A DNA stretch of 38,311 bases from a bacterium (lineage in GTDB: Bacteria > B130-G9), in the NCBI GenBank assembly GCA_021160245.1, contig JAGHCW010000181.1:1-38311 (forward strand), in the 5' to 3' direction. The notes under the pieces are model-generated. The model ran no database searches and was not told the origin of the DNA. It worked only from the letters and a program-made list of their open reading frames with translations. Both the position numbers and the translations under genes were made by a program. Positions 1 through 15,920 of the stretch are shown piece by piece (the stretch's first letter is position 1; every line of letters begins with the position of its first letter).

Positions 1-791
1 ATCTTCTTGCGATTGATCCCCATATCCTCAGCTCGCGTCGGCCATCCAACGAGCATTATCCCGGCCTTTGAATCAAATGACGCTTGGGCATCAAAACCGG
101 TGAGCATCGCCGACAGGGCGATCACGAGCGAGACCGGCAGTCTGTTTTCGGCCGCAGAGGCAGCGAAGCAGCTGGAATAAGGATACGTTTTGAGAATAGA
201 ATCGGAGAGTCGCTCTTGTAACAGATTTTTCCAACTAGTCTCCTCTTTCGCGTATATCGGTGGGATTTTAGCCAGCGCGGCTCTAATCGACTCCTGCGTG
301 CTAGGGGTCGCTTGAGTCGCTCCGGCAGTTGCGGTCTGACCGTTGAAATCGGTATCCGAGCTTGCGGCGAAGTCTGTTTGAGTTTGGTCAGAGGCAGCGG
401 CCATTTGAGCGAGTCGCTCTTCTTCAGCCGATTCCCTGAGCATTCCGGCTGGTGATGCTTCAGAGGCCATGCCCTCTGTCTGAGCGGTTTGCTGGGCAGG
501 TGACGCACCCGCTTGCTCAAAAGCTGTACCCGATGAATCTTGCTCAGGCGCCCCCTCAGGCTCGGCCGAGCTGCCGACCGGCTCATCGGACTCGTCCGGC
601 GCAATGCTATCCTGCGAGCCGAGCTCATCAGCCAACTCGTTTTCCGAAGCCATTTGCTCCGCGATCTCGGGCGGTTTTGCGGGGGACTCCTTTGCGGAAT
701 CGCCCCCAAACATCTCAACGATGCTTGGATAGAAGACTGCACATATAACGATTATCAGGCCGATTATGACGCCTAACACAACGACTTTCAT
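1..791 (-). CDS. Membrane-anchored protein with degenerate lytic-transglycosylase-like domain (C-terminus cut by window edge)
   Basis: The frame is open from ATG at 791 to the left edge, 263 codons without a stop. Residues 3-20 form one hydrophobic segment, so the protein is probably anchored in the inner membrane with the rest in the periplasm. Residues 30-165 are a low-complexity linker rich in Ala, Ser, Glu and Gln. From about residue 200 the chain resembles the SLT/goose-lysozyme fold: LPVSLVIALSAMLTGFDAQ, then an AGIM segment, WPTRAEDMGI. In active SLT enzymes the position six residues into this helix is Glu (the ES of the ESxFNP-like motif); here it is Leu230. I infer a non-catalytic, glycan-binding or scaffolding relative. 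The gene is divergent from rnhB. The fold call rests on motif resemblance only, and the missing C-terminus could change it. Confidence 0.62.
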   Translation of the reverse strand, partial: MKVVVLGVIIGLIIVICAVFYPSIVEMFGGDSAKESPAKPPEIAEQMASENELADELGSQDSIAPDESDEPVGSSAEPEGAPEQDSSGTAFEQAGASPAQQTAQTEGMASEASPAGMLRESAEEERLAQMAAASDQTQTDFAASSDTDFNGQTATAGATQATPSTQESIRAALAKIPPIYAKEETSWKNLLQERLSDSILKTYPYSSCFAASAAENRLPVSLVIALSAMLTGFDAQASFDSKAGIMLVGWPTRAEDMGINRKK

Positions 792-1085: not shown

Positions 1086-1727
1086 ATGATGTTCAGGCCT
1101 TGTCCAATGTGGCGCTTTGACGAGGAGATAAGGCGCAGTGGTTGTGAGGCGCTGGCTGGCGTTGATGAGGTCGGAAGAGGCTGCCTCGCCGGGCCGGTCG
1201 TTGCGGCTGCCGTTATGCTCCGCATTGGCTTTTCAGATAGCCGGATACGTGATTCGAAGCAGCTGACGGCAAAGGCTCGCGAGGAGCTTATCAATGTCAT
1301 CGACGATAATGCGGTAACGATCGGCATCTGCGAGGTTGCGCCGGGAGAAATCGACCGGATAAACATCAGGCAGGCTTCGCTTCAGGCGATGGCCGGATCT
1401 GTCTATAAGCTGGCTGTACGGACAGATATCGTTCTTGTCGATGGGATTGCGAAGTTCCCCGGAACGCGGATGCAAATGACGGTGAAGCATGGCGACGCAA
1501 AAAGCCTCTCAATCGCGAGCGCCTCGATAATCGCCAAGGTCTATCGAGACCGTCTGATGTGCAAGTTGGACGCAAAGTATCCCCAGTATCGATTTTCCAG
1601 CAACAAAGGGTATGGAACCAGAGAGCATCTAGCTGCCCTTGAGAAGCACGGTCCTTGTGCAATTCATAGGCGATCCTTTGCCCCGGTTCGTCGGGCGCTT
1701 GAAAATGAGATTCCGCTCTCCACCTGA
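1086..1727 (+). CDS. rnhB: Ribonuclease HII
   Basis: RNase HII cleaves the RNA strand of RNA-DNA hybrids and starts removal of single ribonucleotides from DNA in the cytoplasm. The family signature GVDEVGRGCLAGPVVAAAV is present, with the DE metal-binding pair. A second acidic residue lies in IVLVDG and a third in KHGDAKSLSIASASIIAKV, which matches the four-carboxylate active site. The C-terminal HRRSF motif is also typical. From ATG 1086 the protein is 213 residues, a normal length. ATG 1089 and 1107, ATG 1050 and TTG 1032 are also in frame; 1086 was chosen for length and a weak GGCGAAG upstream. It stands alone, divergent from the left-edge gene, with no obvious operon partner. Confidence 0.96.
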   Translation: MMFRPCPMWRFDEEIRRSGCEALAGVDEVGRGCLAGPVVAAAVMLRIGFSDSRIRDSKQLTAKAREELINVIDDNAVTIGICEVAPGEIDRINIRQASLQAMAGSVYKLAVRTDIVLVDGIAKFPGTRMQMTVKHGDAKSLSIASASIIAKVYRDRLMCKLDAKYPQYRFSSNKGYGTREHLAALEKHGPCAIHRRSFAPVRRALENEIPLST

Positions 1728-2061
1728 AGGCAGTCAGGCGCCTGGCTCCCACGTGATCCCGCATTCAGGCGCCGTCGGCAAAGCCCAATCAGTCATTCGT
1801 AACCTATGGTCAGGACCTCGAAGGCGAGTTTTGCCTTGAAATTCCGCGACTAAACACAGAAGCTCCGTACCGGTTTCAAAGTATCTCTCATCTCTAGATG
1901 CTATCTAGTTAAGTCGCTTTTCGACGGAGGCGGCTCTGGAGGTTATTGTGGGACATACTACATGTAGGGGCAGGCATCAGGTCTGCCCAAATATATAGGG
2001 GGCGGAGACAAGCCCCGCCCTACAAACAGCAAATGCAAGTTGTTGAGCTGCATCTTCAAAT
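1728..2061. other. Intergenic region with palindromes and a repeat fragment
   Basis: This 334-base spacer has no supported gene. Just after rnhB is the palindrome CAGGCGCCTG (1735-1744), and TCAGGCGCC recurs at 1765-1773. From about 1950 to 2025 lies a fragment related to the inverted-repeat element near 37057-37115. I see no clear terminator with a T-run. Confidence 0.5.
1950..2025 (+). repeat. Dispersed repeat, partial copy
   Basis: This stretch shares GGGACATACTA at its left end, a GCCCAxATATxTAG segment in the middle and xACAAGCxCCGCCCxACAAA at its right end with 37057-37115. It carries an extra ~18 bases (GTAGGGGCAGGCATCAGG-like) absent from the other copy. It lacks the 18-bp terminal inverted repeats seen there. 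It is probably a decayed member of an intergenic repeat family. Confidence 0.6.
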
Positions 2062-3360
2062 ATGGACTATATGAATAACTCCAAGCGACCGCAGAGCGAG
2101 ATTGACTTCCTGGCTGAAATCAACCGAGACCTGCCTCAAGGAATAGACTGGAAACGAGGCGCGATTGACTATCTGGGTCGATTGGTCAAGGCCGGCGGCG
2201 AGCAGACAGAGCGCTATCATCTAATCAAGCCGTTTATCGGTGGCCCGGATTTCACCGATTTTTTCTGTGATATATACAAGCTTCTGAATATGCTGCAAGA
2301 GATCAAATTGCCGATGAAAAGTGACGTTTTGGACGTTGCTTGCGGGCCGGGTTGGACGTCACATTACCTCGCCAAATTGGGTCACAGGGTAGTCGGCGTG
2401 GACATCTCGGGGGAGATGATCGAGATGGCTCGGTTGAGGATGGCAAGCGATCCCTATCCCCCTTATCCCGAGCTGCCATTCAAGGCGGAGTTTCGCGTCC
2501 ATGACGTCGAGAGCGGGCCCCTTGAGGATGTGCCCCTATTCGAAGCGGCCATCTTCGAGGCGTGTGTGCATCACTTCTACGACCCGATCCTGGCACTGAA
2601 GAATGTATCCCGCAACCTAAAGCCGGACGGCATAATAGCCATCATGGAGGCCTCTGCTCCCGAGATTGGCTCAAAATATAGCGAGAGCGACCACAAAATA
2701 ATGAAGGAGTATCAAACACTGGAGAGGCCGCTTTCAAGGAAGCAGATGATCAGGCTTCTGAGATTATCGGGATTCGAGCACTTCCAATTTTATTATCCTA
2801 TCAATGGATACTTCGCTCAGACGAAAAGCGTCGCGGACCTCGTGGGAAAGTGGATACTAGAAAGCCGTGAGTGGAACGTTATCATCGCATCGAAGAGCGC
2901 CGAGAGAATGAGGCAGATATCGCCGCAATTCACCGGCGTGAATGAACGTGAACCATCCCTGAATTTCTTCCCGGGCTTTTATCCCGAGCAGACGCGAGCG
3001 GACAAATCCCGCTACAGATGGTCGTCCATCAAGAGCTCTATCGTTTTGAAGAATGTCGATGAGCTAGAACTGCTAATTGGTAGCCTTGTGCCCAAGATGT
3101 GCAATCGACAGCAGACCATTTTCATATACATTGACAGGGAACTACACACGAGAATCGAGCTCTCCGAGAGGCTTGATTCGTTCAGGTTGACGATACCCGA
3201 TCTCAGAGCATCTAGTAGAATTGACTTCTTCTCTGACTCGGCGTTTTCGCCAAAATGGGTCGGCGATAAGGACGACAGAGTCCTGTCATTCACGGTAGAG
3301 GTCATCTCCATTAAGCAAACTAAACCAGCGGCGAAGGACGGACTTTCTAGTCAGTCATGA
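2062..3360 (+). CDS. Class I SAM-dependent methyltransferase with C-terminal extension
   Basis: Residues 88-125 hold a Rossmann SAM site: VLDVACGPGWTSHYLAKLG (motif I), then VVGVDISGEMIEMA with the ribose-binding Asp. HDVE near 147-150 and a FEACVHHF stretch near 165-172 follow the order of Methyltransf_11/25-type enzymes. The substrate cannot be read from the sequence. Beyond about residue 300 comes a ~130-residue domain starting near GFYPEQTR and RYRWSSIKSSIVL. Its pattern suggests a beta-sandwich, a tail I have seen in sugar- or envelope-linked methyltransferases, so a role in glycan or envelope modification is possible but inferred. ATG 2062 and ATG 2071 are both possible starts, neither with a good SD. 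The next gene follows after 57 bases on the same strand. Confidence 0.85.
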   Translation: MDYMNNSKRPQSEIDFLAEINRDLPQGIDWKRGAIDYLGRLVKAGGEQTERYHLIKPFIGGPDFTDFFCDIYKLLNMLQEIKLPMKSDVLDVACGPGWTSHYLAKLGHRVVGVDISGEMIEMARLRMASDPYPPYPELPFKAEFRVHDVESGPLEDVPLFEAAIFEACVHHFYDPILALKNVSRNLKPDGIIAIMEASAPEIGSKYSESDHKIMKEYQTLERPLSRKQMIRLLRLSGFEHFQFYYPINGYFAQTKSVADLVGKWILESREWNVIIASKSAERMRQISPQFTGVNEREPSLNFFPGFYPEQTRADKSRYRWSSIKSSIVLKNVDELELLIGSLVPKMCNRQQTIFIYIDRELHTRIELSERLDSFRLTIPDLRASSRIDFFSDSAFSPKWVGDKDDRVLSFTVEVISIKQTKPAAKDGLSSQS

Positions 3361-3417
3361 CTCAACGATGTAAGGTGGACTTTCCAGTCTGTCCATTTAC
3401 GAAATAAGGAGAACAAC

Positions 3418-4353
3418 ATGAATCGCAATCTCATCTCAATCCTGTTGTCCGTGGCGCTAATGCTCGCGCTTGGGCAGCTGAATTATGCTGAGGAGAAGGG
3501 CTTTGGCGGAACACTGCACTTCAGGGACGGCCAGTCAGTCCATTTCGATCGCCTCGGCACAACGTCTAAAGTCAAAGACTACGAGTTGCAGGGGCACTTG
3601 GGCAAACAGAATGTCAAATACGCTCTTTCCGAGCTCGGGCAGGTGATCTTCTCAGACAAGGAGGCCATGCGCTACGTTAAAAACCTGAACATCAAGGGCT
3701 TTCGATACTACAATCTCGGAACGGTCATCGTCGTGAACAAGAAAAATGAGCGATTCACACTGGTCAAATGCTATATCAGAGGCGACTCAAAGCTCGCCTA
3801 TGTATATAATGACCCCGTGACGAAAGGATTGAGGGAGTCCGCGGTCTCGTTCTCTGAGATTGGTCATATCGCAATCGGCGAGCATTCAGGAACAGCAAAA
3901 CTAAACGCCGGAACGGGCGAGTACTTCCCCGCTATTTACATCTTCGATCCGTTCACCGGGGAGCGCCTTATATGGGCCGAATACGGCAAGCCGGCGCCCG
4001 CCTCAACCCTACGCAAGAACAAACAGACTGAGCCGGTTGCCGGTGAGGCACCGGGCAAGTCGGAGCCGGCGGTTCTGGGCGGAAAGACCAACCTGAAGCT
4101 CGTCATCACGACTCCGGATGTTGCATTTGAGCTCTTTTCATCGTCAATAGACTTAAGGGTCTCCCTCAAGGGGCCTAAGCGTTTCAATCAGCGCGTTGAG
4201 GGCATGAAGGCTGCGAAGACGCATACGTTTGAGTTCGACGGGATTCCAAGCGGCGACTATACGGTTGTAGCAAGATATGGCAATAGAACGACAATGGATA
4301 TTATCCGCGTGGTTGGCGATGAGCTCGAGTTCCACATGGTGTTTGAGAATTAG
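3418..4353 (+). CDS. Secreted hypothetical protein
   Basis: I do not recognise this 311-residue protein. It has a clear signal peptide (residues 1-24, cleavage near NYA/EE). The first ~150 mature residues are rich in beta pattern (GGTLHFRDGQSVHFDRLG onward). A Pro/Lys/Glu linker near 195-220 precedes a C-terminal ~85-residue segment with the look of an Ig-like or carbohydrate-binding beta-sandwich, including FEFDGIPSGDYTVVARYG. That segment resembles carboxypeptidase-regulatory-like modules. The start is supported by AAGGAG six bases upstream of the ATG. It lies between the methyltransferase and the thioredoxin-like gene, so it is probably a periplasmic or surface protein. Confidence 0.8.
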   Translation: MNRNLISILLSVALMLALGQLNYAEEKGFGGTLHFRDGQSVHFDRLGTTSKVKDYELQGHLGKQNVKYALSELGQVIFSDKEAMRYVKNLNIKGFRYYNLGTVIVVNKKNERFTLVKCYIRGDSKLAYVYNDPVTKGLRESAVSFSEIGHIAIGEHSGTAKLNAGTGEYFPAIYIFDPFTGERLIWAEYGKPAPASTLRKNKQTEPVAGEAPGKSEPAVLGGKTNLKLVITTPDVAFELFSSSIDLRVSLKGPKRFNQRVEGMKAAKTHTFEFDGIPSGDYTVVARYGNRTTMDIIRVVGDELEFHMVFEN

Positions 4354-4368
4354 CGAGGCTTTGCGAAC

Positions 4369-4398
4369 TTGACTGTCGAAATTTGTATGTGTTATGGT
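4369..4398 (+). promoter_or_regulatory. Candidate sigma-70-type promoter for the thioredoxin-like gene
   Basis: TTGACT (4369-4374) and TATGGT (4393-4398) are separated by 18 bp. They lie in the 133-base gap upstream of the TlpA-like gene, about 88 bases before its ATG. Motif match only. Confidence 0.4.
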
Positions 4399-4486
4399 TA
4401 AAGATGCATGGAGGTAGTGTCTTTTTATTTGGATAAGCCATGAGTGGCCTAATGAGCTCCAAACAAATCAAAAAGGAGGAAGGAGC

Positions 4487-5392
4487 ATGAGTTTGAAACT
4501 GGTAGTGTTGTCTGTTTTCTGCGCGATTCTGGTTATGCCTGCGATTGGGTATGGTCAGCATGATACTCCGTTCCACGATGGAGACGTGGCGCCGGACTTC
4601 TCTGTCACAAACCTCGACAATGAGACAGTCAAACTGTCTGATTGGCGAGGCAGCATCGTCATGATGGACCTGTGGGCGACTTGGTGTAGTCCCTGTATTG
4701 GTGCTGTGGGTGTCATGGAGAGCGAGATTTGGCAGGTTTACAAGGACAGAGGCGTTGTGGTTTGGGGCGTCGATATAAGCCCCGAGCGGGACGACATCGA
4801 TAAGTTGAAGCAATTCAGAGAGGACCACGGCCTGACGTATCCGATGGCCCTTGATGTTGATCATGAGACAAGGCCCTATGCGAGTGGATATGTCCCGACG
4901 CTCTACATTATTGACCGTGAGGGCATAATCCGTTTTGGCGAGGTTGGATTCGGCAAAGATGCGGTCATCGCGAAGATCGAGGAGCTTCTGAATGAGAAGC
5001 CTCCCGAGCTGACTTTCGAGCTCAAGCTGCAAAAGCTTGGGACGCCAGATTCGCCTACTGATCCCTCGGTCTATGCCCCCGGCGACGCTATGATGCTCAA
5101 GGCCGACGTCATCAATCCTGATCTCCCACTGCCTGTTGTTGCGCATGTTGCATTGGAGATGTTCGGGCAGTTCTACTTCTGGCCGGAGTATGGGACGCTA
5201 ATGACCGGAATCCCATTTACCCTCCCTGAGCAGATGGTCTTGCTGGACTATCAGCTCGAGAGAGTTACGTTCAATGCCTCCTTCCCGCAGGGATCGTTCA
5301 CCTGGTATGGGGTGCTTGCCAATCCGATTAGCGGCGAGTTCATTACCGAAGTTTCCATGGCGCCTTGGACATTAGCCGCGCAGATGCCCTAA
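4487..5392 (+). CDS. Secreted TlpA/ResA-like thioredoxin-fold protein with C-terminal beta domain
   Basis: The signal peptide is at residues 1-24. Residues 30-175 are an AhpC/TSA-Redoxin-type thioredoxin fold: APDFSVTNLDNETVKLSDWRG, then DLWATWCSPC with the redox Cys pair at 67 and 70, and the cis-Pro loop YVPTLYIID (Pro137). TlpA/ResA proteins reduce disulfides outside the cytoplasm, for example in cytochrome c maturation. The partner here is unknown. Residues about 185-301 form a separate beta-rich tail containing FGQFYFWPEYG and GSFTWYGVLANP. It looks related to the tail of the propeller protein at 34202-35548. The start has a strong AAGGAGG upstream and its own candidate promoter. A strong terminator follows. 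Confidence 0.9.
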   Translation: MSLKLVVLSVFCAILVMPAIGYGQHDTPFHDGDVAPDFSVTNLDNETVKLSDWRGSIVMMDLWATWCSPCIGAVGVMESEIWQVYKDRGVVVWGVDISPERDDIDKLKQFREDHGLTYPMALDVDHETRPYASGYVPTLYIIDREGIIRFGEVGFGKDAVIAKIEELLNEKPPELTFELKLQKLGTPDSPTDPSVYAPGDAMMLKADVINPDLPLPVVAHVALEMFGQFYFWPEYGTLMTGIPFTLPEQMVLLDYQLERVTFNASFPQGSFTWYGVLANPISGEFITEVSMAPWTLAAQMP

Positions 5393-5413
5393 GCTGATAA
5401 CTGATAGGTCTAT

Positions 5414-5458
5414 AATGCCCACCTCCGGTGAGACGCCTGGGGTGGGCATTGCTTTTTG
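5414..5458 (+). terminator. Rho-independent terminator after the thioredoxin-like gene
   Basis: A perfect 10-bp stem AATGCCCACC/GGTGGGCATT (5414-5423 with 5441-5450) and a 17-base loop are followed by GCTTTTTG. The T-run is on the plus side, so it serves the plus-strand gene. The stem may also slow transcription coming from the polysaccharide operon on the other strand, which ends at 5515. Confidence 0.9.
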
Positions 5459-5514
5459 TGCTACCGCGCAGAATAGGGGGCGAATCGCTTGGCGCGATTT
5501 ACTGGGCTGCTTCC

Positions 5515-6879
5515 CTAGTTCACGCCTTCGCGTTCAAGGACTTTTTTGACGGTCCTGAAGATGATCTTCAGGTCAAGCGAGAGGCAGTGGTTCCGCATGT
5601 AGTACATGTCATATCTCAATTTCTGGTTAATTGAGAGATCATCTCTGCCGCTAACCTGGGCAAGCCCCGAGACGCCGGGCTGAACGTCGAGCACACGGCG
5701 CTGCCATCGTTCGTAATTGGCCACAATTGAGGGGACTTCTGGTCTGGGACCGACGAGGCTCATCTCATCCTTGAGGACGTTGACGAGCTGAGGCAGCTCG
5801 TCAATGCTAAAATGGCGAAGGAATTTCCCGACGCGAGTTATTCTGGGATCATTCGTCTCTGTAAGAACCGGGCCGATTTTCTCCGCGTTCTGAACCATAG
5901 TTCTGAATTTGTACATCTTGAAGAGCTTGCCGCCACGACCAACTCTGTCCTGAGTGAAGATGGCGGGCCCGCTTGAGGACAGTCTGACCGCAATCGCTGA
6001 AGCGAGAAATAGGGGAGAAAGCAGCACAAGCCCGGCGGATGACGCCACAATATCAAAAGCTCTTTTGACGACTTTCTGTTCTCTTCTGATGCGGTTTTCA
6101 AAGAAACTCATCAGAAGGAGGTTGGCAGTGTCGTCCATTGGCGCTTGCTGCGTGATTATCTCGTAAAAGCTCGGGACTATACTATATTCCGTCATCATCT
6201 CGTCACAGATAAGTATGAACTCAGAAATCGTCGCACGATGCGCAGATGGCATTGCGATTACCACTCGATCTACGCGCTTGCCCCTAATGATCTCCCTCAT
6301 ATCGCGCCTCGTCCCAAGCACCTCAAAGCCGGAGACGACGGAGCCGCTCTTCGCCTCGTTGTCGTCAATGAGCCCGACGATCTCATACCTGTTGTCCACA
6401 GAATCTCTCATTTGGGTGGCGATTCTCGCACCAGCGTTGCCGGCTCCGACGATTAGCACCCTCCTACACTCATCTGCTGACTTTACGAGTAATCTCGCGT
6501 CGATGTATGCGCGAAAAGAGAAAACAAGTAGCAAGTTGATGGCAAATAGGTAGAGCATCACTAGCCTGGGGAAGGACGGGTCTCCGAATGAGAAGATATA
6601 TGCGATAACAAGAAGCGTTCCGCCCGCACAGGCCTTAATTGACGTGAAAAGCAGCCTAATTTTATCTCTCAACGTCTCAATGATATAAAGCCCGAAGTAG
6701 TTGTAGGAGAGCAAGAGAATTAGGGCAGCAATAAGCGCCACTCGGTAATTCCCAAAAGCCCTCTGCATGCCCGCGCCTGCCCCGAAGCAGAGGGCAAAAC
6801 TCAAGAAGAATGAGAGAACGAGTAGCAGGATGTCCGCGACGAGAATTTGCCACCAATTCTTCCTGTTTAAAAGCTTCAT
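5515..6879 (-). CDS. Undecaprenyl-phosphate sugar-phosphate transferase (WbaP/WcaJ-like priming enzyme)
   Basis: This enzyme moves a sugar-1-phosphate from a nucleotide sugar onto undecaprenyl phosphate, the first membrane step of capsule or exopolysaccharide repeat assembly. The N-terminus has four to five hydrophobic segments (about residues 10-125). A Rossmann domain follows with RVLIVGAGNAGARIA near 140. The bacterial sugar transferase domain starts at KRAFDIVASS near 272. It carries DRVGRGGKLFKMYKFRTM, the catalytic SIDELPQLVNVL, MSLVGPRPE and PGVSGLAQVSGR. Length (454 residues) is typical. A TTG at 6894 would extend it by five residues, but ATG 6879 has GGAGAG at good spacing. It is last in the operon, 31 bases after the preceding gene. 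Glucose or galactose is the usual sugar; the sequence does not decide. Confidence 0.95.
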   Translation of the reverse strand: MKLLNRKNWWQILVADILLLVLSFFLSFALCFGAGAGMQRAFGNYRVALIAALILLLSYNYFGLYIIETLRDKIRLLFTSIKACAGGTLLVIAYIFSFGDPSFPRLVMLYLFAINLLLVFSFRAYIDARLLVKSADECRRVLIVGAGNAGARIATQMRDSVDNRYEIVGLIDDNEAKSGSVVSGFEVLGTRRDMREIIRGKRVDRVVIAMPSAHRATISEFILICDEMMTEYSIVPSFYEIITQQAPMDDTANLLLMSFFENRIRREQKVVKRAFDIVASSAGLVLLSPLFLASAIAVRLSSSGPAIFTQDRVGRGGKLFKMYKFRTMVQNAEKIGPVLTETNDPRITRVGKFLRHFSIDELPQLVNVLKDEMSLVGPRPEVPSIVANYERWQRRVLDVQPGVSGLAQVSGRDDLSINQKLRYDMYYMRNHCLSLDLKIIFRTVKKVLEREGVN

Positions 6880-6910
6880 CGAGCGGCTCTCCAATCTGTT
6901 CTGGGGGCTC

Positions 6911-7594
6911 TCAGCTCCAGAGGTTGTACCTCAATATGCAATAGACGGCGCGAAATCCGTCGCCCAAGCCGATCTTCTTTCCTTCCCCATAAGTTCTGCC
7001 GCGATATGATATACCGACTTCGAACACCCGCGCCTTTGCTTTTGCGATTTTGGCCGTTACTTCGGGTTCAATACCAAACCTGTTCTCTTTCAGATCAAGT
7101 GACTTGATAAGCGAGGCGCGAAATGCTTTGTAGCAGGTCTCCATGTCCGAGAGGTTGAGGTCGGTGAGCATGTTGGACAGGAGCGTGAGCATCATGTTTC
7201 CAACGTGATGCCAGAAGTAGAGGACTCTGTGCTCCTGACTGCCCTTGAAGCGGGAGCCGTAAACGACATCAGCCCGGCCCTCGATTATCGGTTTTAGTAT
7301 CTTATGATACTCGTTTGGATCATATTCCAGGTCAGCATCCTGGATTAGAACAACGTCGCCTTCCACGACACGAATACCGCTCCGTAAGGCGGCGCCCTTG
7401 CCCTTGTTCCTGTCGTGAAGAACTAGTCTGTCAATAAAATCCTCAAGCTCTGGATAAATCTCCCGTGTGCCGTCCGTTGAAAAGTCATCGACGACTATCA
7501 CCTCTTTTTCCATCTGGACATCTTTTACCTGCTTGAGTATTTCCCGAATTGTGCCCGCCTCATTAAAGACGGGGATGATTACAGAGACCTTCAT
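6911..7594 (-). CDS. Family 2 glycosyltransferase, dolichol-phosphate mannosyltransferase-like
   Basis: A GT-A fold transferase of 227 residues. MKVSVIIPVFNEAGTI opens the fold, VVDDFSTDGT holds the nucleotide-binding Asp pair and QDADLEYDPNEY is the DXD-type metal site. YGSRFKGS is also typical of DPM1-like enzymes that load a sugar on a polyprenyl phosphate or extend a lipid-linked glycan. No membrane segments follow the catalytic domain. The ATG at 7594 overlaps the TGA of the upstream gene as ATGA, which suggests translational coupling. A longer ATG start at 7630 would overlap that gene by 40 bases and put 12 unlikely residues in front, so I rejected it. Acceptor unknown. Confidence 0.92.
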   Translation of the reverse strand: MKVSVIIPVFNEAGTIREILKQVKDVQMEKEVIVVDDFSTDGTREIYPELEDFIDRLVLHDRNKGKGAALRSGIRVVEGDVVLIQDADLEYDPNEYHKILKPIIEGRADVVYGSRFKGSQEHRVLYFWHHVGNMMLTLLSNMLTDLNLSDMETCYKAFRASLIKSLDLKENRFGIEPEVTAKIAKAKARVFEVGISYRGRTYGEGKKIGLGDGFRAVYCILRYNLWS

Positions 7595-8331
7595 CTTGGA
7601 TGCCCCCTCCACATAGAGAGTATTAGACAATAGTATCCATATAGAGCGCGCAGAATCTTCAGCTTGCTCTTTCCAATTTTCCTATCATATCGAAGCTCAA
7701 ATGGAATTTCAGCTACTCTCGCTCCAACTGCGACCAGTTTCAACAGAAGCTCAGTTCCGCAAGAGAAGTCGCGATGTTCTATCAGCCGTTCACCGTATTC
7801 TTGCAGTCCTCTTAGGATGATCTCGGCCCTATACGCTCTGAACCCACAAGTGTAGTCGCGCAATCCCTCTACGGGGAAGAGAAATGACATTAGCACGCAG
7901 GCCGCCTTACTCAAAGCCATTCTGAATGCCGGCACGCCCAGAACACTTGCGCTACGTGCCCATCGCGAGGCGACGGCTATGTCAAAACCCTCGAATAGCC
8001 TTTCTACTAGCGGTGTAAAATAAGCCGGGATGTGCGAGCCATCTGCGTCTAGCGTCAAGATTACATCTGTCTCTTCGCAGGATTCCGCAGCCGCCCGAAG
8101 CCCCGTGAGAAGCGCTTTGCCAAGTCCTTCGTTTGACCGGTGCACAAGAAGCTTGACCGGAGCGGAGTTTGAGAATTCGCGGGCAACATCGGCCGTATCA
8201 TCCGTGCTCCCGTCATCAACAATGAGGATTTCAAACTCCAATTGAGCGCTTGTGAGGCAGGATGCTATTTCCGGCAGCAATCTACTCAGGTTCTCGCCTT
8301 CATTGAGCGCGGGAAGGACTATCCTTAACAT
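7591..8331 (-). CDS. Family 2 glycosyltransferase, dolichol-phosphate mannosyltransferase-like
   Basis: A 246-residue GT-A transferase. MLRIVLPALNEGENLSRLLP starts the fold, IVDDGSTDDTAD binds the nucleotide and LDADGSHIP is the metal site. SRWARS and a TCGFRAYRAE stretch fit the DPM1-like branch, as does YDRKIGKSKL near the end. It is a distant paralogue of the next gene rather than a recent duplicate, since similarity is limited to the motifs. It follows the nucleotide-sugar dehydratase by 120 bases and overlaps the next gene by four. No clear SD was found before the ATG. It probably adds a sugar to the lipid-linked repeat or makes a polyprenyl-phosphate sugar donor. Confidence 0.92.
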   Translation of the reverse strand: MLRIVLPALNEGENLSRLLPEIASCLTSAQLEFEILIVDDGSTDDTADVAREFSNSAPVKLLVHRSNEGLGKALLTGLRAAAESCEETDVILTLDADGSHIPAYFTPLVERLFEGFDIAVASRWARSASVLGVPAFRMALSKAACVLMSFLFPVEGLRDYTCGFRAYRAEIILRGLQEYGERLIEHRDFSCGTELLLKLVAVGARVAEIPFELRYDRKIGKSKLKILRALYGYYCLILSMWRGHPR

Positions 8332-8451
8332 TCTGTGTGACCGAGATATTGGGATGAGATTATGAGGCGCTTATTGGGGTTGATTGCTACCTGTTGACAT
8401 GCTCGCAAGCCAGCCCCGTCGAATGGAAGTCTCTCAATTGCCCGAGCTAGA

Positions 8452-10398
8452 TCAGGCTGTCTCAGAGCCATCACTAGCGGGGCGCTGTGATACAGGGACG
8501 GGAGGCTTCTTGTGGACCTTGTTTGGCGCCTTCTTCAGGCTAGCCAATTGATCGATTGGCCCCTCTCCTACAAACTCCGGAATCAGTTGTTTCATCACCG
8601 ATACAGACTTCTGCAAGTCCGCCTGTCCAATTGCTTCCTGCAATGCGTCAATGAGCCTTCGCGTTCGGACCTTATCTCGCTGCTCACTTGCTCCGACAAG
8701 TATGTCTCTGTGACCAGTGGTCTTGAGATTCTCGCCTTTTAGGAGCAGCTCCTCGAATAGTTTCTCTCCGGGTCTTAAGCCTGTATATACGATTTCGATG
8801 TCCTCACCCGGTGTCAATCCCGACAGCCTTATGAGGTCCTTTGCAAGATCGACTATGCGGATTTGCTCACCCATCTTCAGCACGAATATCTCGCTGCCTC
8901 GGCCCATCGTGGCCGCCTCGAGAACCAGCTGAACCGCTTCGGGAATCGTCATAAAATAGCGAGTAACCTCTGGATGAGTAACCGTAACTGGCCCGCCCTG
9001 CTTAATCTGGTGAGTAAAAAGCGGAACAACGCTACCGGTGCTGCCAAGAACATTGCCAAATCGCACGGTCATAAATGATGTCTTTGAGCCCTCAAGATAG
9101 TCCTGTATTACAAGCTCGGCGATTCGCTTTGAGGCGCCCATTATGCTAGTCGGATTGACAGCCTTATCAGTGGAGATTTGAACGAAGGCCTTGACCCCCC
9201 ATCGCTCGGCTGTCTCGGCAAGCGTCTTCGTTCCGAAGACGTTATTCCTGAATGCTTCTATAGCATTGAGCTCCATCAATGGGACGTGCTTGTGGGCGGC
9301 GGCATGAAAGACCATGTTAGGCTTCAAGCTCTTGAATAGCTCGTTCATGGAGTTTGCGTCGCAGATATCTGAAATGAGCGAGACGTGTCTCACCCTCGGC
9401 ACCATCTCTCGCTCAAGCTCATAGTCGATGGAGTAAAGACAGTTCTCTGCCCTCTCGAGCAATATAAGAGTCTCTGGCTCGTATTTTGCAACCTGCCTGC
9501 AAAGCTCAGAGCCAATCGAGCCACCGGCGCCTGACACCAGGACGCGCTTGCCCGATATTGATCCCAATATCCTCTCGGTGCTGAGTTCAATGGGCGGTCT
9601 CCGCAGCAAATCCTCAACCTGAACGTCGCGTATTTGGTTGACCGAGACAACGCCGGCAATGATGTCACCCAAAGGAGGCAGAGTCCTGAACTTGACCTTC
9701 TCACGTTTACAGACGCTGATTATCCTCCTGACCTGCGCGCCGCTAGCCTTTGGCATGGCGATAATAACCTCGTCAATCTCCTTATCCGATGCGATTTCGC
9801 CGATTTCAGTAATGGTCCCAAGCACGGGTATTCCATGAATTCTTGTGCCGACCATATCCGGGTCTTCTGTAATGATGCCCAGTGGTTCCAGCCCGACGGA
9901 CGGGCTGCTGAATAACTCCCGCGTGAGCATTTCCGCTGGGTCACCGTCCCCAACAACAAGAACCTTGCGCCTCTCCGAAGGCTGATTAGTGGTGATCAGC
10001 CGGTACCCCCTGATGAGGAACCTCATGGCCCCAATTGAATAGATCGTCAGAAGCCAGTCGATAAAAAGAACAGAGCGAGGAAATCTGCCGAAGGGCGTGG
10101 GAATTATGAGCACCGCAGCAAGAATGAAGATGGTTGATATACAGGATGCCCGTATTAAACCCATTAGATCGGCCATGCTAGCATATCGCCATATCCCCTT
10201 GTAGCAGCGCGCCAGCATTAGAATGACGATCTTGGTGATTACGACAATTGGCAAAGTGTAGATGCACAGACTCACCATGTTCTCGGGAACAGGGAGCTCG
10301 AATCTCAAGTAGAACGCGAGAAGGTAGCAGCCGGCAACCGCGAGAGCGTCAGCCAGCATCAGAATCACCTGTCTTTCTCGCGATGTCATATCACGCAT
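8452..10398 (-). CDS. Membrane-bound nucleotide-sugar 4,6-dehydratase, WbpM/CapD family
   Basis: The family converts UDP-GlcNAc to a 4-keto-6-deoxy sugar for surface polysaccharides. Residues 10-130 carry four hydrophobic segments. A first Rossmann domain (KVLVVGDGDPAEML, 145-158) is CoA-binding-like. The catalytic SDR domain starts at VLVSGAGGSIGSELCRQ (286-302), with FHAAAHKHVPLME (364-376) and STDKAVNPTSIMGASKR (409-425). In the catalytic YxxxK position the Tyr is Met420 with Lys424, the altered SMK triad known from WbpM-type large enzymes, as opposed to the SYK of short FlaA1. Length (648) is usual for the large form. The product would be a 6-deoxy or 2,6-diamino-type sugar precursor for this polysaccharide. 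Confidence 0.95.
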   Translation of the reverse strand: MRDMTSRERQVILMLADALAVAGCYLLAFYLRFELPVPENMVSLCIYTLPIVVITKIVILMLARCYKGIWRYASMADLMGLIRASCISTIFILAAVLIIPTPFGRFPRSVLFIDWLLTIYSIGAMRFLIRGYRLITTNQPSERRKVLVVGDGDPAEMLTRELFSSPSVGLEPLGIITEDPDMVGTRIHGIPVLGTITEIGEIASDKEIDEVIIAMPKASGAQVRRIISVCKREKVKFRTLPPLGDIIAGVVSVNQIRDVQVEDLLRRPPIELSTERILGSISGKRVLVSGAGGSIGSELCRQVAKYEPETLILLERAENCLYSIDYELEREMVPRVRHVSLISDICDANSMNELFKSLKPNMVFHAAAHKHVPLMELNAIEAFRNNVFGTKTLAETAERWGVKAFVQISTDKAVNPTSIMGASKRIAELVIQDYLEGSKTSFMTVRFGNVLGSTGSVVPLFTHQIKQGGPVTVTHPEVTRYFMTIPEAVQLVLEAATMGRGSEIFVLKMGEQIRIVDLAKDLIRLSGLTPGEDIEIVYTGLRPGEKLFEELLLKGENLKTTGHRDILVGASEQRDKVRTRRLIDALQEAIGQADLQKSVSVMKQLIPEFVGEGPIDQLASLKKAPNKVHKKPPVPVSQRPASDGSETA

Positions 10399-10489
10399 AG
10401 TGGCCCCTAACCAAACCGACGGTGAAACCGCTACATAAGGAAAGTAATCTGAAATCCGATTGAACCAAATAACCCAATATCGCAGACCT

Positions 10490-10858
10490 CTATGGTGACA
10501 ACATCTTCAATACTGCCTGAACCTCTGATATCCTGAATGGCTTCACTATTACAGAGTTAGCTCCAAACGAAAGCGCGTTCTCGACCATCTCCCTATTTGA
10601 GGCGCCCGTCATCACGACTATGAGAACCTCAGGCGACTTGGCCTTGATCCTCTTTATTGCCTCGCACCCATCCAATACCGGCATCTTGAGGTCCATATAG
10701 ACCACGTCGTATTTCTTCTTCTCAGCTAGGTCCAGGCCCTGTTGCCCATCATACGCGACATCCACTTTGTATTTGCCCTTTGGTAAGGCGTCAACAATCA
10801 CGTCGCATATTGGACGCTCGTCATCCACGACCAGGATATTATATGTTTTCCGATTCAT
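10490..10858 (-). CDS. Single-domain response regulator (CheY-like receiver)
   Basis: A stand-alone receiver of 122 residues. The acidic pair is in LVVDDERP (Asp12, Asp13), the phospho-acceptor is Asp56 in VYMDLKMPVLDG, the switch Thr84 is in VVMTGAS and the conserved Lys106 is in VIVKPF. There is no output domain, so it must act by protein contact or as a phosphate relay. It is embedded in the polysaccharide operon between the tyrosine kinase (54 bases away) and the dehydratase (91 bases away), which suggests that it tunes polysaccharide assembly. The cognate kinase is not in the operon; the large hybrid kinase at 29321 carries its own receiver. Confidence 0.93.
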   Translation of the reverse strand: MNRKTYNILVVDDERPICDVIVDALPKGKYKVDVAYDGQQGLDLAEKKKYDVVYMDLKMPVLDGCEAIKRIKAKSPEVLIVVMTGASNREMVENALSFGANSVIVKPFRISEVQAVLKMLSP

Positions 10859-10912
10859 GTTTTGTCCCCATTCGCTTGGAGAGGGGTGGAAACTCCAAAT
10901 ACCCTCTAAATA

Positions 10913-11914
10913 TCAGTGGCGATTCGAGTACCCGTAAAGTCCATAGCCTGCCTTGTCAAGATCGACCTCATTGAGCACCGCGCCCAGGATTCGGCAATTG
11001 ACATTCTCAAGCATCCTCATAGCTTGCACAGCCTGTTGTCTGGAGCTATGGCCGGAGCGTATCATCAAGAACGCATTCCCGATCGCCGAGCCAATTACAA
11101 CCGAATCGGTCAACCCGATTATGGGCGGCGAATCGACGATCACTAGGTCAAACTCGGCCGATAGATAGTCCAAGAGCCCCGGCATTGCCGAGGAGGAAAG
11201 CAGCTCCGCCGGATTCGGCTGAAGCGGCCCGGTTGGTAATATATGCAGCTTGTCGAAGATAGTACGACTAATGGCTATCTCGGGACTCAGATTGTCCAGC
11301 ATGACGTTGCTCAATCCGAGAGAATTATCAATACCTAGATACTTGTGGAGAACGGGGGCTCTCAGATCGAGGTCTAAAAGAAGCGTCTTCTTCCCAGTAT
11401 TGGCAAGCGCTATTCCGAGATTGGCGACCGTTGTGGATTTGCCTTCTTTAGGCGCTGGGCTCGTTATTAAGAATATGTTCCCAATCTTCTCCTTCATCCT
11501 CACAAGAAGATTCGTTCTGAGCGTTCTGTACGCCTCGACGGCAGCATTGCTGCTGGAAAATATCTCGATGCTCTTCTTGATAAGGTCAGCGTCAACTCCC
11601 TTGGCGAGGCGCATTTGGTGCTTTTGCGACTCCTTCTCCCAGAGGACAGTCTCGTTGGGATTAGCAGCCCCTGCACCCTCCCTTATTTCGACTGCACAAC
11701 CCAGCCGCTCTAGGTCTTTCTTCGCGTTCTGCGCCGAATCGAAGTTCATTCTCCTGAAGGTGAAAGGAGGGTTCTCAAGAGCTTGCTGAATCCGCTCCTT
11801 GGACGCCCCTTTGCAGAAAGCCTGAAGCCTATCGACCAAGGCGCCTGTATCGCCGTCATCCGGCACAAAGGTTACGCAGACCATGTAGGCCTTTCGAGAT
11901 GAATCTTCCGTCAT
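10913..11914 (-). CDS. CpsD/CapB-type bacterial tyrosine kinase with extra N-terminal module
   Basis: BY-kinases autophosphorylate on a C-terminal Tyr cluster and control polymer length together with a Wzz-type partner, here the upstream gene. The P-loop is SPAPKEGKSTTVANLG (about residues 151-166), Walker A' is LLLDLDLRAP and Walker B is VIVDSPP. The C-terminus is YGLYGYSNRH, a short cluster of three Tyr. Residues 10-80 are not part of the usual kinase: a compact module ends in AKKDLERLGCAVEIREG, similar in pattern to ribosomal L7/L12-tail-like modules. It is a cytoplasmic-type kinase that needs a separate membrane activator. ATG 11914 has AGAGGA and GGAG upstream and lies five bases after the previous stop; ATG 11947 would overlap that gene by 29 bases. 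Confidence 0.93.
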   Translation of the reverse strand: MTEDSSRKAYMVCVTFVPDDGDTGALVDRLQAFCKGASKERIQQALENPPFTFRRMNFDSAQNAKKDLERLGCAVEIREGAGAANPNETVLWEKESQKHQMRLAKGVDADLIKKSIEIFSSSNAAVEAYRTLRTNLLVRMKEKIGNIFLITSPAPKEGKSTTVANLGIALANTGKKTLLLDLDLRAPVLHKYLGIDNSLGLSNVMLDNLSPEIAISRTIFDKLHILPTGPLQPNPAELLSSSAMPGLLDYLSAEFDLVIVDSPPIIGLTDSVVIGSAIGNAFLMIRSGHSSRQQAVQAMRMLENVNCRILGAVLNEVDLDKAGYGLYGYSNRH

Positions 11915-11918
11915 TCCT

Positions 11919-13376
11919 CTATCTCCGTAGCTTCTTATTGGTCCCATGAGCTGCGAATTGAGAAAAACTCAATACGGACCGCGTCTTTGCTTCAAACTCC
12001 GGAATCATCCCCGCCACCCAGAGCCCGAGGTAACGCTCCACGTCTTCCGGCGTCTTCAGTGTCGACTCCAAGTATTCTCGTAGGAACGCTAGGGCTATTC
12101 CGAGAATTATCCCTATGATTGACGCTACAAGCAGTTTCAGATGCATCTTCTTGGAAACGGGGCCAAGAGGAATCACCGCAGATTCGACAATGCTTATCTG
12201 ACGCCTGCTGACACCACTTGAAAGCGCATTCCTTCTGCGCCTCTCAATCAGGACTTCATAGAGCTCCTTCGATGTGGAAACTTCACGTTCGAGTATCGAG
12301 TACTGAAGTCCTTCGGTGCTCAACTTACGGACTTCCTCTTTGTATGAATCCACAGTCCTGGCCTGTGACGCCTCATTCTGGCGCAGCAGTTTCAGCTTGT
12401 TCTTGTGAGTCTTGATGACTTCGTTCTCGTGATTCTCCAGCTGTGTCGTAAGCAGCCGTATCTTCTCCTTCAAAGAAAGAATCTCCGGATGCTTTGATTT
12501 GAAGCGGAGCGATTTCTCCGCAAGTTCGGCCTTGGCCTCGTCCAAATCGGATTTGATACGCCCTATCATCTCAGAGCCATAACTCCTGAAGGCAGGTGTG
12601 GCGGCCACAGGTCCTAACTTCATCGCCGACGTTAGGGATTCAAGCACCATCTCCGCTTCCTTCCGCTCCGCCTTCGTACCAAGATACCGTGCTGAGGCGG
12701 CTCCAACGTTAGCAGCCAACTCCTTCTTCCGTTCCTCAAGTCCTATGATTCCCTTCTCAAGCTTGAACGCCTGAAACTTTGACTCTGCCTCATTCACTTT
12801 CTGACGCATCTCTGAAATCTGCTCACCGAACCACTCAATTGAGGCGCTGGATTCGGTTAGCTCCCGTTTGCGAGTCTCCTCAATATATGTGTTTGTGACC
12901 AGGTTGACAATCTTGGTAACATATTCCGGGTCGCCTCCAGCGCACATTATCGTGGCGAGCGCGGCTTGAGAGGATGTGTAACCCTTGCTCTTGTGAAAGA
13001 GCATACTGATATTCCGCTTGAAGGCGTTGATTCGGTACTCCTTTTTCCTGCTCGGAAGATTCAGGAATCCCGGGTCCAGCTGGCCCAAGACAGACGCCAT
13101 TACGGGCCTGCTAAACAGCAATGCCGCCTCTATTTCGGGATCAATCCCGGGACCTGCTTGAAGACTCTCATCTGCCATAGGTGGAGTGCTCTGCTCGATC
13201 AGGACTGTCGCTTTCGCCTCATAGACGGGCTTCTCCATTGAAAGGAGTATCGCAGTGGGAACTACTGCGACAATAACCGCCAATACTATGAGCCAATACC
13301 GTTGTCGCAGAACGTGAAGGTACTGGCGGATGTTGATCTCCTGCCACTCCTCCTGGATAGAAATAGGCTCTTCCAC
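11919..13376 (-). CDS. Polysaccharide chain-length determinant, Wzz/GNVR family (GumC-like)
   Basis: Inner-membrane co-polymerase that sets chain length and activates the BY-kinase. A cytoplasmic N-terminus is followed by TM1 (about residues 27-46) after the usual INIRQYLHVLRQRYWLIVL entry. The periplasmic part holds long coiled-coil helices (about 190-390, rich in Glu, Lys and Leu). SILEREVSTSKELYEVLIER is the GNVR-type region. TM2 lies near 418-437, followed by FLREYLESTLKTPEDVERYLG just inside the membrane. There is no fused kinase; the kinase is the next gene, five bases on. The start is GTG at 13376 with AGGAG seven bases upstream. Length (485) fits the GumC/EpsP group. Confidence 0.95.
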   Translation of the reverse strand: MEEPISIQEEWQEINIRQYLHVLRQRYWLIVLAVIVAVVPTAILLSMEKPVYEAKATVLIEQSTPPMADESLQAGPGIDPEIEAALLFSRPVMASVLGQLDPGFLNLPSRKKEYRINAFKRNISMLFHKSKGYTSSQAALATIMCAGGDPEYVTKIVNLVTNTYIEETRKRELTESSASIEWFGEQISEMRQKVNEAESKFQAFKLEKGIIGLEERKKELAANVGAASARYLGTKAERKEAEMVLESLTSAMKLGPVAATPAFRSYGSEMIGRIKSDLDEAKAELAEKSLRFKSKHPEILSLKEKIRLLTTQLENHENEVIKTHKNKLKLLRQNEASQARTVDSYKEEVRKLSTEGLQYSILEREVSTSKELYEVLIERRRRNALSSGVSRRQISIVESAVIPLGPVSKKMHLKLLVASIIGIILGIALAFLREYLESTLKTPEDVERYLGLWVAGMIPEFEAKTRSVLSFSQFAAHGTNKKLRR

Positions 13377-13397
13377 GATACGCTCCTGAGCTAGTAT

Positions 13398-14402
13398 CTA
13401 GAATAAAGAACGGGGCACATAGACAATATCTCCGGGCTGAAGCAATACATCAGCACTCTTGTCGCCGCCCTCGGTTATCCTGTTTATGTTAACCTTGATG
13501 GTTGTCACTTTGCCGTCAATCGTTCTCTTGATTGCGACTCTTGATTTGGCCGCTCCCTCTAGAAAATTGCCAGCCTTTAGAATCGCGCGCAGCACCGTCA
13601 GGCCCTTTGAGTAGGGAACGAAGCCGGGTTTACGAACTTGCCCGGACACAAGAACACTCCTTATTATCTTGCCGCCCATCTCGGAAGCCTGTTCGCCAGA
13701 AAGAAGATAGATGATGTCGCCGGCCTTCACGGGAATACCGGCGGCCTTCACATGCTTCGTCATGAGTTCGATCAAGCCCGCAGTGTATCGCTCCGGCGCT
13801 GAATCCAATTCACCTTGTGGGCCCACGGCCGGCCTTATCAGGACCACGGTCTTGTCCAGTCCACCTTTTGGTCCCCCTGCGCGGATCACAACGTCTCTTA
13901 AGAGCTCGGTTTCGGCCTGAAGATAATAGGTTCCCGGGGCATCGAACTCTCCGACTAGGGTAACCTTGTGGCTTCTCCGCTTCATCAGAGTCACGACTAC
14001 TGATGGTGAGACTAGATAATCCTTCTCCAAGAGCTTGGCCACTTTCGATGAGAACTGATCTGGTGTGAGGCCCATAGCCTCTACGTCATCCAACATGGGA
14101 AGGACAACCGTTCCTTGAGGAAGAACAACAACGTCCGCCATCTTCTGGAATCCGCCCTTACCCCGGATGATCACCGAGAGCTCGTCCCCTGGACCGAGAG
14201 TGTAGCTCCTGTCTGATTCTTCTGTATTCAAGGTTGTGGGTAGCATCTGAGTCGCCGGTGAGGGCGCCGTATGCGAAGGAAGCGGCTCAGGCTCATGGCT
14301 TGGAAGATGCTCCACTACGGGAGCCTGATTGTGACATCCGCAAGTGATCAAGAGATATAGACACATTACGGAACACAATAGAAACACTGCCCTATTGCTC
14401 AA
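13398..14402 (-). CDS. Polysaccharide export lipoprotein, Wza/OPX family with SLBB domains
   Basis: Outer-membrane polysaccharide exporter (OPX). A lipoprotein signal ends at LLITCGC; either Cys21 or Cys23 could be the lipid-bearing residue. A Pro-rich spacer (25-60) leads to the Poly_export domain, YTLGPGDELSVIIRG, near 67-81. Two SLBB-like segments follow: VTLVGEFDAPGTYYL near 148, and VLVSGQVRKPGFVPYSKGLT near 245. The chain ends with GDIVYVP. The start is TTG at 14402, fixed by a strong GAGGAGG seven bases upstream and by the signal peptide. It overlaps the previous stop as TTGA, so translation is likely coupled. The length of 334 residues lacks the long C-terminal helix part of E. coli Wza, which implies a separate outer-membrane pore, perhaps the preceding gene. 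Confidence 0.95.
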   Translation of the reverse strand: MSNRAVFLLCSVMCLYLLITCGCHNQAPVVEHLPSHEPEPLPSHTAPSPATQMLPTTLNTEESDRSYTLGPGDELSVIIRGKGGFQKMADVVVLPQGTVVLPMLDDVEAMGLTPDQFSSKVAKLLEKDYLVSPSVVVTLMKRRSHKVTLVGEFDAPGTYYLQAETELLRDVVIRAGGPKGGLDKTVVLIRPAVGPQGELDSAPERYTAGLIELMTKHVKAAGIPVKAGDIIYLLSGEQASEMGGKIIRSVLVSGQVRKPGFVPYSKGLTVLRAILKAGNFLEGAAKSRVAIKRTIDGKVTTIKVNINRITEGGDKSADVLLQPGDIVYVPRSLF

Positions 14403-15664
14403 AGCCCTACCTCCTCTTGAAGCTCTAACGGATAATCCGCAACATCGTCGCCCTGAGAACCATACTCGGCGTAAAAAGATACCCCAACCGCATGACTGTC
14501 ATACTCGTATTCTTCGATTGTAGAGTCAACACATGCAAAGGTATAGTTCGCCCTAATCGACAGCCACCTAAAAAGCTTGTACCCAAGAATCGTCGAGGTC
14601 CTATACACGTGGTCCTTCCGGTCATTTGTCGGGACATACTTCCTATGTTGATATTCCCCATTAAGTATCGTCTCTATCCTCTTCAAAAACGTGTGCTGGA
14701 AACTCCCCCGAACGCTGGAGCTCCTGCGGAACTCCCCGGCCCAAACATCGCTTGGCTCATAGCCCGTTCTTAGAATGATATGTGCGTAAGAACCCTCCGA
14801 CAATCGCTTGCTGGCGGAGAATGAGCCACTGAATCCTGTTCGCCTCTCCGGGGCCTTCTCGGCGCCACGGCTTCTGTATCTCGTTGACACGAAGCCACCA
14901 TTAGCACGGACTTTCACATCCATCCCCGCAAAATGACGACTTAGATAGATGCGGCCCGAATACTCGTACCTGTCGTCGAGCGCTCCAGGCGCCTTGCCGC
15001 TTATTAGCCCCCAATCGCCCAAGACACCGACTTCCGTCCGCGAGCCAAGTCGGTATCCGACGCTGGCAAGGGCAAAGTTGGAATCCCTGTCCAGCCCCTT
15101 GTCATCCTCACCTCGATGCCATAGACCCGATGTGCGATGGCTGATGGACAGAACTACCCTCGTGCCGGGAGAATACTGAAGACGCTCGGTGCAGATGTTC
15201 CCAGTATAGCGACGCCCAAGATTCGAATCGTCGCTCATCCTCAAGCTCCCTACCACGGAATCTGTGAATCTGTCATCCACTGTCAATGACAGACTGTCCG
15301 TGAAGTGAAGCCGACCCCAAAACTGCCCAACGTGTGAATTAGCTGCGCGCCTCGAGATGCCCTGCGCGCGATAGAAGTCGAAAGACGGTTTGTAATTCAA
15401 TCGGAATTCACCATAGTCAACTGAGTAACGCCCACTCAAAACCGCGATTAGATGAGTCACATACGATTCTCTTGCCAACTCGGAAGACTCCTGCTCCTTG
15501 TCGCTAAGGAGAGAGGGATTCCATTCATACTTACCACCCACCTCGAGTCCAGCCTTCAATCCGAGTTTCCTCTGAGCGAAACTGTCCGAACAGAGAAACA
15601 GAATGGAGTACAGCAAACACGCCACAAGAGCAGCCGTGAATGAGCTCCCAGCATTAATGCGCAT
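14399..15664 (-). CDS. Outer-membrane beta-barrel protein of the polysaccharide operon
   Basis: A 421-residue protein with a signal peptide (1-31, cleavage near SFAQ). Alternating beta strands rich in Tyr, Ser and Arg run to the end, as in the putative beta-barrel family often found next to GNVR/OPX genes (BBP2-like). Examples are RYSVDYGEFRLNYKPSFDFY and LSIRANYTFACVDSTIEEY. The C-terminus does not end in the classic Phe. Likely role: outer-membrane channel or assembly partner for polymer export; inferred from place and fold. ATG 15664 has AAGGG upstream and gives a perfect signal peptide. The frame opens earlier (15793) but those residues are not credible. First gene of the operon, with the inverted repeat at 15703-15739 in its leader. 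Confidence 0.85.
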   Translation of the reverse strand: MRINAGSSFTAALVACLLYSILFLCSDSFAQRKLGLKAGLEVGGKYEWNPSLLSDKEQESSELARESYVTHLIAVLSGRYSVDYGEFRLNYKPSFDFYRAQGISRRAANSHVGQFWGRLHFTDSLSLTVDDRFTDSVVGSLRMSDDSNLGRRYTGNICTERLQYSPGTRVVLSISHRTSGLWHRGEDDKGLDRDSNFALASVGYRLGSRTEVGVLGDWGLISGKAPGALDDRYEYSGRIYLSRHFAGMDVKVRANGGFVSTRYRSRGAEKAPERRTGFSGSFSASKRLSEGSYAHIILRTGYEPSDVWAGEFRRSSSVRGSFQHTFLKRIETILNGEYQHRKYVPTNDRKDHVYRTSTILGYKLFRWLSIRANYTFACVDSTIEEYEYDSHAVGVSFYAEYGSQGDDVADYPLELQEEVGL

Positions 15665-15702
15665 GACATCACCCTTAATTTCAAAAAACCCTTGCTTGAT
15701 CT

Positions 15703-15739
15703 GTCGTATCTGAGTAAAATAACCTTTACTACATACGAC
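15703..15739 (-). promoter_or_regulatory. 37-bp inverted repeat in the leader of the polysaccharide operon
   Basis: Arms GTCGTAT (15703-15709) and ATACGAC (15733-15739) are perfect complements. Inside them AGTAAA (15713-15718) pairs with TTTACT (15725-15730), leaving a six-base centre. It lies 38 bases upstream of the first ATG of the operon. It could be a dimeric regulator's operator or an mRNA hairpin. No T-run follows directly, so it is not a classic terminator. Confidence 0.6.
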
Positions 15740-15920
15740 GATGGATTCCAAGAAATTAAACCAGAACTGGCATCTTATCCCGTTCAACTTCACGCTTGCG
15801 ACTAGGCGATTTGAGGCGGTGAATTATGGGCGTTGCGCCCTGTGGGCAATATAATGCCGAGGAGATGTTGGTCCGCTTCAGCGAGATTTCTCCTACCCGC
15901 TTCCCGCAAAACAGAATGCT

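Follow-up and report, generated by a model that had tools for sequence, protein, structure and literature searches.

The first gene of the window, by which we mean the whole 38,311-nucleotide stretch of DNA that was analysed and which makes up the entire contig C163, runs off the contig at its start. Together with its probable continuation on contig C59 of the same genome, from a poorly sampled bacterial lineage, it would encode a bitopic protein of the cell envelope, about 405 residues long, that combines an SLT domain lacking the catalytic glutamate with a SPOR-like domain. With moderate confidence, we propose that this protein works without catalysis, binding or regulating the cell wall. 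The loss of the cutting residue, taken together with the SPOR-like domain, makes a wall-binding or regulatory role more probable than wall cutting. The coordinates of the features are collected in Table 1.

Table 1. Features of the window gene, of its probable continuation and of the related locus on contig C85.
Feature	Location	Strand	Basis or remark
5' part of membrane-anchored protein (263 aa)	window 3..791	minus	one open frame, ATG at 791
Hydrophobic membrane anchor, residues 3-21	window 729..785	minus	mean Kyte-Doolittle 3.17
Acidic low-complexity linker, residues 30-164 (135 aa)	window 300..704	minus	net charge -24
Putative N-terminal half of degenerate SLT domain, about residues 208-263	window 3..170	minus	joined-sequence PF01464 match and alignments
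Leu230 codon CTC, catalytic Glu column	window 102..104	minus	alignment to 12 SLT N-halves
Probable continuation of the window ORF	G000:C59:2-427	plus	141 aa (L014), frame open at 5' end
Papain-like domain, membrane helix and copy of the C59 C-terminal domain	L026 (G000:C85) 1318-2979		553-aa protein
Copy of the FN3-like gene	L026 (G000:C85) 2981-4099		follows the pseudo-papain gene

The codon usage of the window ORF (score 0.09) fits that of the other genes of the window. The usage table was derived from 20 window genes, whose own scores range from 0.02 to 0.19, and the five other frames score negative. This normal codon usage supports the ORF as a gene. A preceding sequence-only reading had described a membrane anchor and a 135-residue acidic linker, and both were recovered, the anchor as a strongly hydrophobic segment and the linker at exactly that length and with a strongly negative charge. 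Judged by eye, no clear signal-peptidase site appears to follow the anchor.

The same reading had held that the C-terminal part of the window protein matches the SLT pattern residue for residue. The segments FDAQAS, GIM and WPTRAEDMGI do all occur in the protein, but the match is not a full one, with 16-26% identity to 12 SLT N-halves in the alignment, Thr in place of Ser at position 231 and the Gln of the GxxQ motif gone. Searches of Pfam, NCBIfam and PHROGs with the window part alone gave no SLT match. A home-made SLT model was also derived from 12 domains (4 from the own genome and 8 from three members of its family, several of them near copies); on this model the window half scores 2.4 bits, with its shuffles reaching 9.3 bits (2000 made, 1600 reported), and HHalign assigns it a probability of 0.9%. 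The AlphaFold model of this half, in which a lysozyme-like fold was looked for, is poor (pLDDT 57, pTM 0.35); neither of the two chains structurally compared with it reached Z 2, a result to which so poor a model lends no meaning. Because the window half has no profile match and stays within its shuffles, the SLT pattern is unprovable from the window alone, and the SLT reading becomes significant only when the C59 half is added.

A search of the genome with PF01464 returned five places, comprising four nearly full-length domains and one half-domain. The latter lies at the very first bases of C59, covers profile positions 63-95, the second half of the SLT domain, and is in the right orientation and frame for the window ORF. 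Reading C163 in reverse complement into the start of C59 keeps the frame, both when the two are abutted and when they are merged through the 3 bases that they have in common. When joined, the two halves match PF01464 over positions 2-95 of 117 with 29.1 bits if abutted (E 7.8e-7) and 27.5 bits with the overlap, above the curated cut-off of 21.3 bits, a score that depends on the inferred contig join. The C59 half by itself lies at the cut-off (21.2, 21.8 for its first 73 residues, and 22.0 bits), so that the window half adds 7 bits in the Pfam model (21.8 to 29.1). The earlier proposal of a membrane-anchored, degenerate transglycosylase-like domain is thus supported once the C59 half is joined, but not for the window half, which is unrecognisable alone.

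On the home-made model, joining raises the score from 15.1 bits for the C59 half to 19.4 bits, and shuffling the whole joined sequence gives 5.9 bits at best (2000 shuffles made, 1423 reported). Among 837 real segments, 24 score at least 19.4 bits, all of them, by eye, from the SLT ORFs that supplied the model; the next one scores 9.9. Controls conditional on the C59 half are closer: shuffled window halves fused to C59 reach 19.4 bits in 22 of 5000 cases (maximum 23.1), and foreign real segments do so in 5 of 1626 (maximum 21.5). By HHalign, adding the window half does not improve the match (P 4.8e-6 for the joined sequence, 3.2e-6 for the C59 half alone). No overlap beyond 3 bases was found between the C163 edge and any contig and, as the first 20 bases of the window are unique in the genome, no longer overlap favours C59 or another neighbour.

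These results bear on an alternative that we consider possible though unlikely, namely that the window encodes an anchor-plus-linker protein with a chance likeness to SLT at its C-terminus, and that C59 carries part of another gene. The shuffle and HHalign results for the window half alone are what such a chance likeness would give, as is a contig link consisting solely of a 3-base overlap, but the low counts in both conditional controls and the gain in Pfam score argue against it, as does the fact that the only half-domain among the five PF01464 places begins where the window ends. We regard the join of C163 and C59 as probable, on the basis of frame, order and motif, with an overlap of only 3 bases.

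Within the joined protein, the hallmark residues of the SLT domain were compared with those of the 12 reference domains from this and related genomes, all of which keep the Glu-Ser pair, the Gln of G[LV][MW]Q (GxxQ) and AYN. Leu230 sits in the nearly invariant Glu column of the alignment, and Leu230-Thr231 takes the place of Glu-Ser. At the position of the GxxQ Gln, one alignment places Leu247 and another Val248, and the C59 half reads AYR for AYN. The replacement of the catalytic Glu by Leu, noticed from the window alone, is therefore confirmed (Glu in 12/12 reference domains), but four hallmark positions differ and not one. The occurrence of these losses in both halves also fits a single gene. 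We rejected an error in one base as the source of Leu230, since CTC is three changes away from GAA or GAG. No orthologue in which the Glu position could be checked was found in the genomes searched. That glycan cleavage is retained through another acidic residue replacing Glu230 seems very unlikely: Asp234 and Asp240 are close by in the sequence, but the nearest Glu residues are 215 and 255, and the GxxQ Gln and AYN Asn have gone as well. Judging from these residues, the window/C59 protein has apparently lost transglycosylase activity.

The C59 frame continues beyond the SLT remnant into a further domain. The AlphaFold model of this frame, built on a two-sequence alignment, has pLDDT 66.7 and pTM 0.47 overall; in it, the SLT remnant is uncertain, and residues 71-130 form a confident beta-alpha-beta-beta-alpha domain with block-mean pLDDT values of 80-89. 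As the mark of the SPOR (PF05036) fold, we took an RNP-like arrangement with an antiparallel sheet and two helices on one side. Foldseek returned no match to the domain at E ≤0.001; the SPOR domain of CwlC was listed with a probability of 0.98 but an E value of 0.32. In VIA-align, the top row is 6ozd, an exported protein of unknown role that is not titled SPOR (Z 7.2), followed by the SPOR domains of RlpA (6i09, 6i05; Z 6.5, 2.2 Å, 64 residues) and CwlC (1x60; Z 6.3, 3.5 Å, 71 residues). The Z scores of these three SPOR entries, 6.3 to 6.5, are in the middling range, and near them lie the ring-building secretion domains of PrgK (6.2) and EscJ (6.0) and LAGLIDADG proteins (up to 5.8).

At the sequence level, no PF05036 match was obtained for the C59 domain or its C85 counterpart at E up to 10, nor in the six-frame search at E up to 1. 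With four SPOR domains from the own and related genomes, HHalign gave a probability of 0.5%, and 52 of 300 column-shuffled controls scored as high. When FVFRKF was aligned by hand with xVQVGAF of L076, it had no counterpart to the conserved Gln of beta1, to which the accessible part of PMC6895207 assigns a glycan-binding role. The same part of that source describes SPOR sequences as poorly conserved, so the failed profile match is not strong evidence. Based on the predicted model, the C59 C-terminal domain appears SPOR-like in topology, and the sequence tests do not make it a SPOR member. The suggestion made from the window alone, that a dead transglycosylase would be a peptidoglycan-binding or scaffold protein, is in keeping with the presence of such a domain on C59. 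An ordinary SPOR protein is also encoded in this genome (L076, PF05036 54.3 bits), with a membrane helix and a long linker as judged by eye.

A second copy of the C-terminal domain was identified on contig C85, where it forms the last 69 residues of the 553-aa protein (71% identity to the C59 domain). On both contigs, the product of the next gene apparently has a signal peptide and matches FN3 below threshold (15.7 and 14.6 bits, cut-off 25), and these two FN3-like proteins are 74% identical. Comparison of the copies gave a dN/dS of 0.11 over 68 codons of the domain and of 0.21 over 331 codons of the FN3-like gene. The C-terminal domain is under purifying selection relative to its copy. Upstream of the membrane helix, the C85 protein carries a papain-like domain (PF00112, 28.0 bits, cut-off 20.7), in which Ser144 (AGC) occupies the position of the catalytic Cys, with His298 and Asn321 retained. 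The catalytic Cys is kept in all six papain loci that were read, namely five of the 19 loci in other genomes (L027, L028, L029, L030 and L032) and the one on contig C27 of the own genome. This substitution suggests that the Ser form on C85 is inactive. Further upstream on C85 lies a lipoprotein-like gene of 402 aa that is open at the contig edge (L026 (G000:C85) 3-1211) and has no Pfam match at E up to 1.

The N-terminus of the window protein and the C85 anchor showed no significant similarity at the DNA or protein level; the two proteins consequently share the C-terminal domain and the next gene, and not demonstrably the anchor. It is conceivable, if on the whole doubtful, that one envelope module, made up of a membrane helix, a linker, a SPOR-like domain and a neighbouring secreted FN3-like protein, serves as a chassis for different dead enzymes, with a pseudo-transglycosylase outside and a pseudo-papain probably in the cytoplasm, each dead enzyme acting in wall growth or division as a head for binding or sensing.

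The occurrence of these proteins was examined across several genome sets. At E 0.001, the window protein found itself alone in 60 genomes (its own included), and its SLT half, searched in the own genome and three family members, found itself and otherwise weak matches with E values of 0.21 to 0.44. Across 386 genomes, again including the own one, the C-terminal domain returned its two own copies and places in 81 other genomes at E 0.0056 to 1 that were taken as chance; in 386 genomes, the FN3-like protein returned its two own copies and 38 others at E 7.3e-8 to 0.1, mostly, by eye, through an FN3 stretch. Scans of genome contigs and viral contigs and tblastn searches of plasmids, collections that may omit the window's own genome, yielded no relatives. 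Among the genomes searched, three are same-family relatives, the other listed ones being related at domain level. The rnhB gene that neighbours the window gene was found in two of these three family members, and no anchor-plus-acidic-linker gene was seen near their rnhB among the listed ORFs of at least 90 aa within about 1.5 kb. No convincing homologue was found outside the own genome, and within the reach of these searches the window/C59 and C85 proteins look confined to a narrow lineage.

Such a distribution, in which the three same-family relatives give no match that reaches E 0.001 (weak places at E 0.19 to 0.44), together with the loss of several hallmark residues, is also what a former transglycosylase on its way to becoming a pseudogene might leave. 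We consider decay of this kind improbable, as no stop interrupts the roughly 405 codons (if the join is right), codon usage is normal and the low dN/dS of the C-terminal domain against its copy argues for constraint, the SLT part having no copy to compare.

Several other features of the window and genome were recorded. The window contains, by eye, an exopolysaccharide locus (5515-15793) with genes for a sugar transferase, glycosyltransferases, an epimerase, chain-length and tyrosine-kinase proteins and an export protein, as well as a beta-barrel protein (PF10082). A further observation concerns L019 (G000:C59) 1483-4780 and L074 1526-2803: the C-terminal regions of two tandem right-handed beta-helix proteins (PF13229), by eye, resemble one another and the end of the C27 papain that keeps its Cys, perhaps as a shared tail of secreted proteins. 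Farther along C59 (L019 (G000:C59) 5033-7309), a phage-type integrase (PF00589) adjoins a tRNA-Leu gene, with an HTH gene (PF12728) beyond, and this is probably an integrated mobile element.

Compared with known systems, the window/C59 protein resembles the SLT lytic transglycosylases (PF01464; the Slt70/MltC, GH23 type) in domain order and in profile positions 2-95 once the halves are joined, whereas the catalytic Glu, the following Ser, the motif Gln and the AYN Asn are lost here. We noticed no comparable dead SLT transglycosylase among the papers listed in literature searches. According to the accessible part of PMC6895207, most SPOR proteins are predicted to link the domain to an N-terminal membrane helix through a disordered stretch. 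With the bitopic SPOR proteins FtsN, DamX and DedD, as covered in the accessible parts of PMC6895207 and PMC7642682, the protein shares an N-terminal membrane helix, a long low-complexity linker and a SPOR-like C-terminal topology; it differs in its additional degenerate SLT domain and in a C-terminal domain that fails the SPOR sequence tests. RlpA likewise unites transglycosylase-type and SPOR-like domains in one protein and is, in the available portions of PMC6895207, PMC7642682 and PMC6113214, a SPOR-containing lytic transglycosylase reported to be active in P. aeruginosa, but it is a lipoprotein of the outer membrane and carries a DPBB domain, not an SLT domain. The catalytically inactive LytM factors EnvC, NlpD and DipM are known regulators of wall hydrolases, and DipM stimulates autolysins, its degenerate site forming a docking groove (PMC10336132, accessible part). 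They offer the idea of a dead peptidoglycan enzyme as a regulator or adaptor, but belong to another fold and enzyme class, and for the window/C59 protein such a regulatory role would follow by analogy.

For the preferred reading, that of a non-catalytic binder or regulator of the wall, the following arrangement can be envisaged. A very short N-terminus would lie inside the cell, followed by one membrane helix in the orientation we infer, and the long acidic linker would let both folded domains reach the peptidoglycan. There, the degenerate SLT cleft, the SPOR-like sheet or both would attach to glycan strands or to a partner enzyme, either a hydrolase or a synthase, and the bound strands or partners might be placed or regulated, as with the dead LytM factors and the bitopic SPOR proteins. 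If this holds, the wall pseudoenzymes would gain a second enzyme fold, beside the inactive LytM peptidases, and the pseudo-papain locus would suggest that a single membrane module has recruited dead enzymes more than once.
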